DNA of 64,000 nt from positions 3,167,815 through 3,231,814 of the forward strand of contig NC_016633.1 in NCBI RefSeq assembly GCF_000236685.1, given 5' to 3'. Every line of letters begins with the position of its first letter. Within the stretch, counting starts at the first letter, position 1. Origin of the DNA: Sphaerochaeta pleomorpha str. Grapes. GTDB taxonomy: Bacteria; Spirochaetota; Spirochaetia; Sphaerochaetales; Sphaerochaetaceae. Under the pieces are notes generated by a model, which worked only from the letters and a program-made list of their open reading frames with translations, was not told the DNA's origin and ran no database searches. The position numbers and the translations under genes are program-made. Below, piece by piece: positions 4,646-34,095 of the stretch.

Positions 4646-4738
4646 ACCTTTTCTTGATGCAGAATATGGGTAATTGCTTCAATTGACAGGATGCAAAGAA
4701 AAAAACTAGACTTCACCCAACGTTGGAGGGGTATTTGT

Positions 4739-6112
4739 ATGGCCAAACTATGGCAGAAAGACTATTCACTCGATTCCTTGATGGAAGAATTTACCGTAAG
4801 TAACGACTATATTCTCGACCAGGAACTGGTAATTTCCGATTGCCTTGCTTCCATTGCCCATGCAAGGGGCCTTGCTGATATCGGCATCCTCAGTGAAGAA
4901 GAGCTCGATTCGCTGGAGCAAGGACTGAGTGAAATCATCACACTTAGGCAGAAAGGGGAGTTTTCCATTACCCCCCAGGACGAGGATTGCCATACGGCTA
5001 TCGAAGGGTATTTGACCAACAAGATCGGTGAAGCCGGGAAGAAAATCCATACCGGGCGTAGTCGAAACGACCAGGTCCAGACAGCATTGCGAATCTGGAT
5101 GAGGGAGTTTTCGATCAGGCTCTGTCGTGAAACCGGTCTGTTTGCCCAGGCCTTGCTCGACTTTGCCAAGAAATATGAATTCGTACCAATGCCCGGACGG
5201 ACCCATATGCAGATTGCCATGCCTTCTTCGGTCGGTCTTTGGGCTGCTGCGTTTGCCGAGGAATTCTATGACGAAGGGCAACGGCTCATGCAGCTTTCCT
5301 GGACCCTTGACCAGAGTCCTTTGGGTTCTGCAGCCTCTTATGGTGTCCCGCTTCCCTTGGACAGAACCTATACCGCAAACCAAATGGGTTTTACCAGGGT
5401 CCAGAACAATGTCCTCTATGCAAATAACAGCAGGGGTAAGTTCGAGGCTATGGTGCTCGACTGTTGCGATTATATTGCCTTGACTGCAAGCAAGCTTGCC
5501 CAGGATCTTATTCTGTTTACCCTGCCTGAGTTTGGGTATTTTTCCCTTCCCCCGCAATTATGTACTGGGTCGTCGATCATGCCCCAGAAAAAGAATCCCG
5601 ATGGCCTGGAGTTGGCCAGAAGCCGGTCTTCGGTTGTCTCTTCCTGTGCATCACGGGTGAAATCGATTATCAGGAGTCTTCCTTCAGGATATAACCGGGA
5701 TTTCCAGGATACCAAGGAACCCCTGATGCAAGGTACCAAGGCTACCTGGCAATTGGTCCAGATTATGAAACGGATGCTTGAAGGCCTTGAGGTGCATGAA
5801 GATAGGCTTACCTCTGCCTGTGTTCCCGAATTGTATGCCACAGACGTCGTGTTGCAGAAGGTTTTGAAGGGGGGGAACTTCAGGGATACCTATAAGGATA
5901 TCGGTCTTCATCTCAAGGATGTACAGGCAATGGACCCCGTACAGACGATCCAGAATAGAACCAGCCTTGGTACGACCGGCAACCTGGGGTTGGAAGAAGA
6001 TGACTTGTTTGTAAGGCTTATGATTGAAGGATGTGATGAGGTTTTAGAATCATACACCGCTGCCTATGAAAACCTCTGTGACCTTGAGGGAGTCCAAGCC
6101 GTTCTGTATTAG
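4739..6112 (+). CDS. argH: Argininosuccinate lyase
   Basis: A 457-residue enzyme that splits argininosuccinate into arginine and fumarate, the last step of arginine synthesis. The fumarase/aspartase signature GSSIMPQKKNPD is at residues 277-288, and TGRSRNDQVQTA near residue 105 is a substrate-binding segment. The start at 4739 has GGAGGGG 8-9 bases upstream; an in-frame ATG at 4691 lacks one and adds a non-conserved tail. No argG or other arg biosynthetic gene lies nearby, so this is a stand-alone gene. It ends at a bidirectional terminator. Confidence 0.96.
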   Translation: MAKLWQKDYSLDSLMEEFTVSNDYILDQELVISDCLASIAHARGLADIGILSEEELDSLEQGLSEIITLRQKGEFSITPQDEDCHTAIEGYLTNKIGEAGKKIHTGRSRNDQVQTALRIWMREFSIRLCRETGLFAQALLDFAKKYEFVPMPGRTHMQIAMPSSVGLWAAAFAEEFYDEGQRLMQLSWTLDQSPLGSAASYGVPLPLDRTYTANQMGFTRVQNNVLYANNSRGKFEAMVLDCCDYIALTASKLAQDLILFTLPEFGYFSLPPQLCTGSSIMPQKKNPDGLELARSRSSVVSSCASRVKSIIRSLPSGYNRDFQDTKEPLMQGTKATWQLVQIMKRMLEGLEVHEDRLTSACVPELYATDVVLQKVLKGGNFRDTYKDIGLHLKDVQAMDPVQTIQNRTSLGTTGNLGLEEDDLFVRLMIEGCDEVLESYTAAYENLCDLEGVQAVLY

Positions 6113-6239: not shown

Positions 6240-7196
6240 CTAGACAAGGTGACTTGTGGTATTTCCTGAACGTTTCTGCAAGACAGGAGTGTGTTTCACT
6301 GCTTGGTGATACGTCTCTGCGATATTGGTACAGTAGTCACCGATATGCTCAAGGTGCCTGATCTTCTCAAGGATCAGCAACTCAATGCGTACATCGGCAT
6401 TCCCGCTGGTAAGGCGTTCCTGAACCATGTCGCTGAGGTGGTTCCTCCAGGTATTGATCTGTTCCTCGAACTCGTTGGCCTTCTGCATTTCGGCCTTTGT
6501 AAGGGTCCTGTCCATGCGGTCGCGGATATAATCGAGGAATTCCTGGACGAGCAGTTCATATTGGTTCAGGTCACTGGCGATGGAAAGTTCGAATGTCCAA
6601 CCTTGCTGGTATCGTCGTTGGCTGAGCATAGCCAGGTTGTAACAGCTGTCGGTTACCGATTCCAGTTCATCCATAACACGGATCAAACAGTTGAGCGTCG
6701 AGGCATTCGTAGGAGTCTGGGAATCTTGCAAAAGGTGGACGCAGAAATTGGAAAGCTGTTCCTGCATCTGGTCTGCATATTCCTCATCTTTTTTCATTGC
6801 CAGTACCTCGGCTTCCATGTTCACTTCCTTGTTGTTGAACATATTGCGGTAACGGCTGAGCATATTGCAGGCAAGGTTTGCCATCTTGCGAATCTCATCC
6901 CTGATAGTTAGCAGATACAACTCAGGGCTATCGATGAACGTACCACCGATGTAGGTAAAGTGGTAGGTCCCTTCATCGTATTCGGCTTTTGCCGGAACGA
7001 GTTTTTCAATAAGTTTTGCAAACTGTCGGACAAAGGGGAAAAACACAATTGTGTTGATAACATTGAAAAAGGTATGGAACATGGCCAGAAAGAGCGGTAA
7101 TTCTTTGGAGAGTGCAGTCCCTGTCATGGAGAAAATATCTCCTGGGGTTATAAGGTTGACAATATGAAGCAGTGGTTTGAAAAAGACTACTGCCAA
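6240..7196 (-). pseudogene. Na/Pi cotransporter, C-terminal part (last membrane segments and PhoU-like domain), out of frame
   Basis: A frame of 318 codons holding the second half of an NptA/PNaS-family sodium-phosphate cotransporter. It has membrane segments around LFLAMFHTFFNVINTIVFFP, then a long helical PhoU-like cytoplasmic domain (DEIRKMANLACNMLSRYRNM ... EKIRHLEHIGDYCTNIAE). It is displaced from the first half (7187-7996) by a 14-bp tandem duplication. Removing one unit joins the halves seamlessly (SLLAVVFFKPLLHIV) into about 580 residues, the family's normal length. No proper start precedes this half apart from a TTG inside the repeat. Either the gene is inactive or frame is restored by slippage. 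Confidence 0.85.
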
Positions 7197-7218
7197 AAGA
7201 CTACTGCCAAAAGACTAC
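7181..7218. repeat. 14-bp tandem repeat (2.7 copies) that breaks the Na/Pi cotransporter frame
   Basis: AAAAGACTACTGCC occurs at 7181-7194 and 7195-7208, and a partial third copy AAAAGACTAC at 7209-7218. Because 14 is not a multiple of three, gain of one unit shifts the frame. With 1.7 copies (or 4.7) the cotransporter would be continuous. The repeat therefore has the form of a slipped-strand mutation or a contingency switch. Confidence 0.9.
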
Positions 7219-7996
7219 CGGTGACATTGAACATGATATGGGCCCAGGCTGCCCGCTTAGCCGTCGTACTTGTTCCGATCGAGGCAAGATATGCGGTAAT
7301 GGTGGTACCAATGTTCGATCCTAAGATCAAGGCCGCGGAGGCAGATACCCCAAGCCATCCATTGAAGGCCATGGTAAGGGTCATGGCCATAGCGGCTGAA
7401 GAAGACTGAACGACAACCGTAACGACTGTCCCTATCAAGAGACACGTCAAGACCATGAGAATGGAGTCGCCATTGAATTTTTCAAGGAAGGAAAGAACCC
7501 CGACATTGCCGGTAATGTCGGGCATTGCGTGTTGCATTGAATTCAATCCAAGGAAAAGAAGTCCGAACCCCAATAAAATATCTGCGATTTCCCTGGTTTT
7601 GTTTTTCTTGGAGAACATCATCGGTGCAGCAAAGGCAATTGCCACCAAGGCAAGCGCTGAAATATCGAGTTTAAAACCGAGAATTGCGACGAGCCAGCCT
7701 GTGAAGGTGGTTCCTATATTGGCCCCGAGGATAACCCCGATTGCCTGGATGAGATCCATCAGCCCTGCATTCACAAAGCTGACTACCATGACTGTGGTAG
7801 CCGAGGAGCTTTGTATGAGCATTGTGATGAGGATACCGGTCATTACGGAAATCAACCGGTTTTTTGTCATAAGCCTTAGGATGGCTTTCATCTTGTCCCC
7901 AGCGGATTTCTGGAGTCCTTCACTTAGTAGTTTTATGCCATAGAGGAATAAGCCTAAGCTACCTATAATCTGGAAAATACTCATTATTGCTTTCAT
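7187..7996 (-). pseudogene. Na/Pi cotransporter, N-terminal transport domain, truncated by frameshift
   Basis: 269 codons encoding the transport core of an NptA/PNaS-family sodium-dependent phosphate transporter. Two inverted QSSSA repeats are visible (IQSSSATTVMVVSFVNAG near residue 60 and VQSSSAAMAMTLTMAF near residue 200), each followed by GANIGTT / GSNIGTT, which form the substrate pathway. The frame ends ...LAVVFWQ at the 14-bp repeat instead of continuing into the PhoU-like half. If translated as it stands it would be a membrane protein lacking the last helices and the regulatory domain. The start MKAIMSIFQ at 7996 is ordinary; a second ATG follows at codon 5. Confidence 0.85.
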
Positions 7997-30885: not shown

Positions 30886-33800
30886 GTGAAAAACAGCCAG
30901 AATTGGGATTTGCCAGCCATGCTTGGCGTAGCACCGGAAAAAATCCAACGAAATCTCAGGGACCTTTCAAATTTCCTCGATAATGATATAACGAATTTCC
31001 ATAGGATTTTTTCTTTGTACCATCCTCTGGAGCTATTGAAGATGGCCTATTGGGAACAACATCGTATCGCCAATACCCGCCTCGATGACGAGTTCCAGAA
31101 TCTTGTTACCAGCCGTATGGTTTCGTATCTCCAACAGTTAGTCTGTGCAAACCAAAAAGGGTTTTCCAAGAATCGTGACGTCAAGAAGAAAGATTGGAAA
31201 CGTCTTTGCCAGCTGTTTGATGATATTTGCCGAAAGAGCGTTCGCTATGTCGACAATTTTTCACTTTCCCTTGCTGGCGAACAGGTTTTTCCCACAGAAT
31301 CGGATATGGTTTCTTTCCAGCAGCTGACAACAGATTTTTGCCTTCCGCCTGCTACCGATCCTTCCTTGACCAAGCAGAAGTTTGTTACCCTTTCTTATCG
31401 GTTGCAACCGTTCAATGAACTGGTTTCTGCTGTCTTTTCCTGTGGACTTGATGGATTACTCAAGGCTTTTACTGCCTTGGTCGAGAATGCTTTTGATGGA
31501 ATTGAAAAACTGAAAGATGACAGTACTGTTTTCAAACAGGCAGGCATGCTTCAGATTGAATTGCTCAAAAGCAAGGGTGAAGGGAGCGACGACTTACAGG
31601 CCATGATGGATAAGGTTATCCGTCAGGAAGGTTGGGAAAGCTGGGTTGCTGACATTGTTGGCCGAAGAGATGGGTTTGATTTGTTCGATGTGAAGAAAAT
31701 TACATCCCTGAGCGATGAGGATTGCCTATTGCTCGCATGTGCAGCAGGCAAGCACCAAGAACTCTTTTCTGGGGACAAGAAAGGATGGTTGACCAGGGAT
31801 TCAGTCCTGTTGGATAAGCCTTTTTTGCAGTTTGGGTCGTTTTTCTATTGTTTCGATGCCGAGCATCTTCTGGATAAGGCCTATAGGGTAATAAAGAAGG
31901 CAGTATGTGCCCATAGCGAAGATTTTGCCTATAGATGGGTTTCCCTTGAAAATGAAAAAAACTCTCTTCTGCCGGTCTCCTTTTTCTCTACGTTGCTGGG
32001 AACCATGAATTTTACAAGAAATGTGGAACTTGGTTCTGGCTATGTAGATGCAGTATTTGAAGATGAGCGGCAAAAGCTATACCTTTTGATTCCTTCATGC
32101 CATGCGCCGGCAGCTGAAGGAAATCCTTTTATTTTCCCAAAGGCTTCGGTTTTGCATTTGGAAAATGAAAGAAATGCTTTTGAAAGTCTCAAAGAAATTT
32201 CTGATCTATGCATTGTCCTTGATATGGACAGGGATGCTTTGTATCCATTGGAGATCAAGGATAACGTATTGACGATTTCTTTTTTGCAGCTGGCTAATCT
32301 TGCTTCTGATTGGGATGGCGTGAAACAGTTGAAAGGAATTCTAGGAGTAGGTGCTCCTGTTGTACCTGATCTGAAAGCCGGTTCAGAACTTGAAAGAGAG
32401 GATGCCATTCCCTTTGAACAGGAAGTTGAAGAAGACGATGAAGAGGAAGCTGCCAACGAGCTTGCACTCGATGAGTCCCAGCCCACTTTGTTCCCTATCG
32501 ATGAATCCATTCCTTTTGAACAGGGCACTATGCTTGGAGCTTCTGACAGAGACCTTGATTTTCCTGATGAATATGACCAAGAGGCTGAAAATCTCTTGAA
32601 TGAAAGCGAAGAAGAAACAGAGAACGAATATGAACAAGAGGAATCAGGGATATCGGAAGCAGATGAGGATCTTGAATCAGACAACGAGGATAGCTTTCAT
32701 TCAATTCTAAATACCAATGACGATGAAGACGAAGCTATCGAGGAAATGCATTATAAGAAAGAAAATAGCTCATCATCAGCGTTCTCTCTTTTTTCGCTTC
32801 TTTCTTCTATCGCAAAGGGTGATGAAAATCCAATGGGAATCACGGAGAAGAAAGTCTCTGAGCCTGAACCGATAGCTGAGCCTGAACCGATAGCTGAGCC
32901 TGAACCGATAGCTGAGCCTGAACCGATAGCTGAGCCTGAACCGATAGCTGAGCCTGAACCGATAGCTGAGCCTGAACCGATAGCTGAGCCTGAACCGATA
33001 GCTGAGCCTGAACCGATAGCTGAGCCTGAACCGATAGCTGAGCCTGAACCGATAGCTGAGCCTGAACCGATAGCTGAGCCTGAACCGATAGCTGAGCCTG
33101 AGCCGATAGCTGAGCCTGAACCTATAGCTGAGCCTGAACCGATAGCTGAGCCTGAACCGATAGCTGAGCCTGAACCGATAGTTGAGCCTGAACCGATAGC
33201 TGAGCCAGAGCCGATAGCTGAGCCTGAACCGATAGCTGAGCCTGAGCCGATAGCTGAGCCTGAACCGATAGCTGAGCCTGAACCGATAGCTGAGCCTGAA
33301 CCTATAGCTGAGCCTGAACCTATAGCTGAGCCTGAACCTATAGCTGAGCCAGAACCTATAGCTGAGCCAGAGCCGATAGCAGAGCCAGAGCCGATAGCAG
33401 AGCCAGAGCCGATAGCTGAGCGTATTGAACAAACAAAGCATTTTGCTATGCCTGAAGTTGTTGAGGCCTTACAAAAAAAAGAGGAAGCAGCTGCAACGGC
33501 AGTTGCTTCTGAAAAGCAACCTGAAGCAACTTCTCGTTCGATGCCTTCACCTCGGTTTATCCTTGCAGAGAAAATTGCGGAAAAGGAAGAAGAAGCTCCG
33601 AAACCACAAGTTGCGCAACCCTCTGTACTGTTTGAGGAAGTAGAATCTTCCTTTGACGAAGTCATTCCTGCCCGTCTGGAAGAGATACTGCGAATTATGA
33701 GTGAGGAAACAGGAACAGCCTTCTTTGATTTCTGTAAGTCTTCCGAAGGCCTGCTTCTGCAAAAGATTGATAAATTGATCGAACAGGCTCGGGAAGCCCA

Positions 33801-34095
33801 GCTTGTCGATGGGAAAGACAAGATGTTTACCATTCCCGGGAGTAACCTCACCATAGTGCTGGTTACCGGGCGTAATGATATGCTCCGTACCTGGGATCGA
33901 AGAAACAATGTTGCCGCAGTCATGTATGCACAGGGAAAAGAAACCTGGACAGCGCTCTACCTTTGCTTCAGCCGAATGGGAAATCTTCTCCATGCAGAGG
34001 AAAAGGTCATCAAAAAAGAGGACTTTACTCAGAATGACTGGAAATTTGTCATGAGTTTGGGTGAACGCATCATAGAAAAAAGGAAAAATACATAA
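30886..34095 (+). CDS. Large cytoplasmic protein with 31 EPEPIA hexapeptide repeats, function unknown
   Basis: 1069 residues from a GTG with AAGGAG 9 bases upstream. No signal peptide or membrane helix. Four parts are visible: an N-terminal globular region (~1-500, starting [18 protein letters not shown]); a strongly acidic linker (~510-635, runs of Glu/Asp, with IPFEQ occurring twice); a rod of 31 tandem EPEPIA units (659-844); and a C-terminal domain (~900-1069, [20 protein letters not shown], then [19 protein letters not shown]). The Pro-Glu repeat should form a stiff extended, highly acidic spacer between two folded ends. I recognise no family for the ends. The stop overlaps the IMPase start by one base. 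Confidence 0.8.
32860..33417 (+). repeat. In-frame 18-bp tandem repeat, 31 units (VNTR)
   Basis: Unit GAGCCTGAACCGATAGCT, coding Glu-Pro-Glu-Pro-Ile-Ala, repeated 31 times without any length change (558 bp). Units 1-13 are identical. Variants begin at unit 14 (GAG for GAA), then CCT for CCG, one Ala-to-Val (unit 18), and CCA, GAG and GCA towards the 3' end. This gradient suggests recent growth from the 5' side. Copy number should vary between strains while the frame is kept. Confidence 0.97.

Follow-up and report, generated by a model that had tools for sequence, protein, structure and literature searches.

The window, by which we mean the whole stretch of DNA analysed, comprises 64,000 nucleotides of the Sphaerochaeta pleomorpha str. 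Grapes genome (NC_016633.1, positions 3,167,815 to 3,231,814). On its minus strand lies a Na/Pi cotransporter gene whose reading frame is broken at a short tandem array. The features at this locus are as follows.

4691-6112, plus strand: argH, the convergent neighbour
6240-7996, minus strand: the whole disrupted Na/Pi cotransporter gene (NptA-PhoU type), with an ancestral length of 580 codons
7187-7996, minus strand: upstream ORF of 269 aa, with both Na_Pi_cotrans repeats and their QSSS motifs
6240-7196, minus strand: downstream ORF of 318 aa, with the last transporter helices (conserved AMFHTFFN motif) and a PhoU-like domain
6309-6917, minus strand: PhoU-like helical domain (TIGR02135 match, residues 94-296 of the downstream ORF)
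7181-7218, minus strand: 14-bp tandem array, with units at 7181-7194 and 7195-7208 and a partial unit at 7209-7218

Analysis of the array with Tandem Repeats Finder gave a period of 14, 2.71 copies and 100% matches for the unit AAAAGACTACTGCC. The upstream ORF terminates in an out-of-frame WQ-stop, the TAG being at 7187-7189, and at the 5' end of the downstream ORF there is just a TTG. Removal of one 14-bp unit generates a frame of 1743 bp that encodes 580 aa and contains only the terminal stop. A sequence-only reading of this DNA had described two overlapping minus-strand frames, a repeat present 2.7 times at their junction, and their fusion into about 580 residues on deletion of one copy. 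The coordinates of both frames proved exact, and the copy number and the fusion were borne out by our results.

The domain composition of the gene was then examined. Pfam Na_Pi_cotrans (PF02690) matched two stretches in the first half with a score of 204 bits, above the curated cut-off, and the two QSSS motifs are present in this half. PhoU (PF01895) was found in the downstream ORF. The break is spanned by the NCBIfam model TIGR00704, with positions 4-255 matched in the upstream ORF and 270-308 in the downstream one, and the closest solved transporter by sequence was SLC34 member 2a. Judging from its primary structure, the gene is an NptA-type Na/Pi cotransporter with a C-terminal PhoU domain. 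The single continuous frame expected of such a gene is broken here at 7181-7218 and kept in 21 congeners.

Homologues were searched for in 60 related genomes, and the transporter gene was recovered in 47. In the 21 genomes of the same genus, the gene is full length with a single open frame, and protein identity is 69-80%. As each of the 21 has argH as its convergent neighbour, the transporter genes can be regarded as positional orthologs. The protein alignment of the 21 congeners is gap-free over the junction, with TGSLLAVVFF here corresponding to VGSVIALVFF and similar sequences elsewhere. The sequence-only reading had pointed to intact orthologues as a check, and taking into account that every congeneric gene is open and gap-free at the junction, the 1.7-copy length is ancestral and the additional 14 bp are derived. 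A distant homologue with 47% identity (L029, genome G059) contains one TAA within the match despite an open frame of 594 codons.

Apart from the junction, both halves of the gene were found to be intact and conserved, as had been claimed. Of 304 residues that are the same in all of the other 21 sequences, 300 are kept, and the four differences fall within the 0-5 seen for intact members when each was left out in turn. Comparison with the 21 congeners revealed no second lesion in the transporter gene. The ratio of nonsynonymous to synonymous proportions against eight congeners was 0.16-0.23 for the first part and 0.16-0.27 for the second, compared to 0.04-0.24 between intact congeners; this ratio is a blunt measure, as synonymous sites are saturated against the congeners, so that it provides no date. 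Both halves, by their sequence, still resemble a living gene under purifying selection. The absence of a second lesion, the identical repeat copies and the near-normal ratios suggest that the duplication is young. As far as one genome of the species can tell, the lesion most likely arose very recently, at the level of the strain or culture. The lesion had earlier been called "very recent or reversible"; recency is thus supported, and reversal by slippage would be feasible in principle.

As a simulated control for chance, 464 kb of sequence with matching 4th-order Markov composition was generated and exact arrays of period at least 10 were counted per run. Each run gave 0-1 such arrays with no more than 11 matched bases, whereas the array at 7181-7218 represents a 24-base match, indicating that it is not a chance match. 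We then considered how the array might have formed. The 1.7-copy form holds GTAGTCTTTT twice on the sense strand, a 10-bp direct repeat 14 bp apart, and the end points of the duplication coincide with this repeat. Slippage by one repeat of GTAGTCTTTT yields precisely the 14-bp duplication observed. At a 14-bp offset, the ancestral form of this gene has a longest match of 10 bp and the 21 congeners have one of 1-4 bp, suggesting that the slippage substrate is peculiar to S. pleomorpha and has arisen by codon choice.

To examine the consequence for the protein, we modelled the ortholog in L033 with AlphaFold2 (mean pLDDT 79.7, pTM 0.58, 30 sequences). The model shows helices at residues 244-266, 268-278 and 288-328, followed by a six-helix bundle at 353-564 that matches the PhoU structure 4q25 (TM 0.84 by target length). 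In the S. pleomorpha gene, translation is in frame up to residue 267, where a predicted transmembrane helix of this model ends, and stops after residue 269. The nearly invariant AMFHTFFN motif corresponds to residues 300-307. The truncation thus removes the last transporter helices, this motif and the PhoU domain. In the case of S. aureus NptA, import persists after removal of the PhoU domain alone (PMC13170248), but in the window gene membrane helices are lost as well. Based on the model, the combined loss of helices, motif and PhoU domain makes it likely that the 269-aa product has lost its function.

With regard to phosphate physiology, genes for PstS, two permeases, PstB and PhoU are present in this order and intact at G000:C1:81361-85941. 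Neither a second Na/Pi gene nor a Pit transporter was found in the source genome, and we therefore rejected backup by either of these. S. pneumoniae tolerates deletion of nptA so long as either Pst system stays (PMC4913102). The intact pstSCAB-phoU locus suggests that loss of the transporter would be tolerable in S. pleomorpha. As for the direction of transport, the PhoU-bearing NptA of S. aureus imports Pi (PMC13170248), whereas the NptA-like YjbB of E. coli and Salmonella is reported to promote Pi export (PMC11389368). The proposal that phosphate uptake is switched on and off at this locus is thus unproven and exceeds the evidence.

From these results, we consider it likely that the only Na/Pi cotransporter gene of this genome is present as a frameshift allele of very recent origin, generated by ordinary slippage and leading to loss of function, and not as an evolved switch. 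The ancestral gene of the species would have carried the 10-bp direct repeat by chance, and during replication the nascent strand would have slipped by one repeat, so that 14 bp were copied twice. The ribosome would now reach the TAG after residue 269, giving a product that retains both QSSS repeats but ends ahead of the last transporter helices and the entire PhoU domain, and is probably inactive. The cell would most likely depend on the intact PstSCAB-PhoU system. The same repeat would permit occasional reversion by slippage, as would any short tandem duplication, but as a by-product only.

In order to view the array against the rest of the genome, we surveyed 864 kb (24%) of the source genome, drawn as two sets of 20 stretches. 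Besides the array at 7181-7218, no frame-breaking array with a period of at least 10 and a unit that is not a multiple of 3 was found in this sample, and we could thus reject general repeat-driven switching in the genome. In the same 864 kb there were 33 direct repeats with a length of 10 bp or more and an offset of 10-40 bp that is not a multiple of 3, indicating that slippage substrates are not rare. Arrays of 5-6 bp that seemed to lengthen frames in a smaller survey were judged to be chance extensions after inspection of the frames.

Several other repeats were noted along the way. A 7-bp array, AAAAATT in two copies (L113:14206-14219), would on removal of one unit extend a frame from 181 to 252 codons, a gain of 71 that may be due to chance. 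A 15-bp unit, GTTGCAAATGCAACT, occurs in 3.07 copies in a sequence without a long frame (L132:7853-7898), and 57-bp in-frame tandem repeats are found within a long frame of about 900 codons (L151:11672-11925). In the window itself, an 18-bp tandem array of about 31 units at 32858-33421 lies in frame and encodes (AEPEPI)n within a 1069-aa ORF (30886-34095) without a Pfam match; changes in the number of units would alter length and not frame. Opposite this array, on the minus strand, is a 390-aa open frame (32751-33923) with (SGSAIG)n, which is most likely a by-product of an 18-bp repeat without stops on both strands.

Three other explanations for the broken frame were weighed. An assembly or finishing error, in which case the living strain would have 1.7 copies, we regard as unlikely. 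Such an error would account for a gene that is otherwise perfect and is known from a single assembly, but common sequencing reads are longer than the 38-bp array, 14 bp is atypical of homopolymer-type errors, and the genome sample contained no second case with a period of at least 10.

We also considered an evolved phase-variable switch serving bet hedging, on at 1.7 or 4.7 copies and off at 2.7 or 3.7, as the sequence-only reading had suggested. The unit lies within an ORF, its length of 14 bp is not divisible by 3, all copies are identical, and the gene is otherwise under purifying selection. Moreover, control of phase variation has been ascribed to spontaneous tandem duplications in the capsule genes of pneumococci (Waite 2001, 2003, as cited in PMC4022640), and in C. 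jejuni motA precise reversion of a 49-bp duplication has been described (PMC3928116). These precedents indicate that such an allele can revert, but an adaptive switch does not follow from them. The repeat is not maintained at the locus, being absent from 21 of 21 congeners, has fewer than three copies, and has no frame-breaking counterpart in the 24% of the genome surveyed, all of which argues against an evolved switch. In addition, the reversion expected for insertions of up to 9 bp is no more than about 1e-5 (PMC4022640), which is low for a dedicated switch. An evolved switch is thus quite improbable. Very improbable, too, is a strain-specific switch by which slippage would reversibly turn off a Na/Pi transporter together with its PhoU domain, so that on and off cells of a free-living spirochaete would coexist.

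Least likely of all is synthesis of both ORFs via -1 frameshifting or reinitiation (at TTG 7196 or an internal ATG) to give a recoded or two-chain transporter, which would agree with the 10-bp overlap of the ORFs and with CAGGAGAT about 10 nt ahead of the internal ATG, but not with the single frame in all congeners, the position of the break at a helix end, the lack of an X XXY YYZ slippery heptamer near the overlap (which led us to reject programmed -1 frameshifting) or the lack of conservation in congeners of the internal ATG and its Shine-Dalgarno-like stretch (which led us to reject a conserved internal start for a separate PhoU protein).

Returning to the recent frameshift allele, the annotation should not be read to mean that the genome has two phosphate genes, nor that the species is without this Na/Pi transporter in nature. 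The locus provides a clean natural case of a one-step, potentially reversible knockout. If the population proves to be mixed, it would be a convenient case in which to ask if growth in phosphate-rich culture favours the loss of a secondary phosphate transporter.

Our literature search identified precedents for such an allele, while no paper on the Sphaerochaeta Na/Pi cotransporter gene was found. S. aureus NptA has the same architecture, in which a PhoU-like domain comes after two Na_Pi_cotrans repeats that carry QSSS motifs (PMC13170248), but in the window gene the frame is interrupted after the second repeat, and phosphate import by its product is putative. YjbB of E. coli and Salmonella belongs to the same broad transporter family (PMC11389368). 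Concerning the lesion itself, the 49-bp duplication in motA of C. jejuni 81-176 likewise created a direct repeat and truncated the protein; there, the wild-type sequence was recovered and reversion was observed under selection, whereas here reversion is only predicted (PMC3928116). In the pneumococcal capsule genes, as cited in PMC4022640, switching has been reported in culture, whereas the present target is a transporter in one genome. Nevertheless, the capsule duplications (type 3 locus, cap8E and tts; Waite 2001, 2003) are likewise short tandem duplications that disrupt an ORF and are reversible in principle by loss of a unit.
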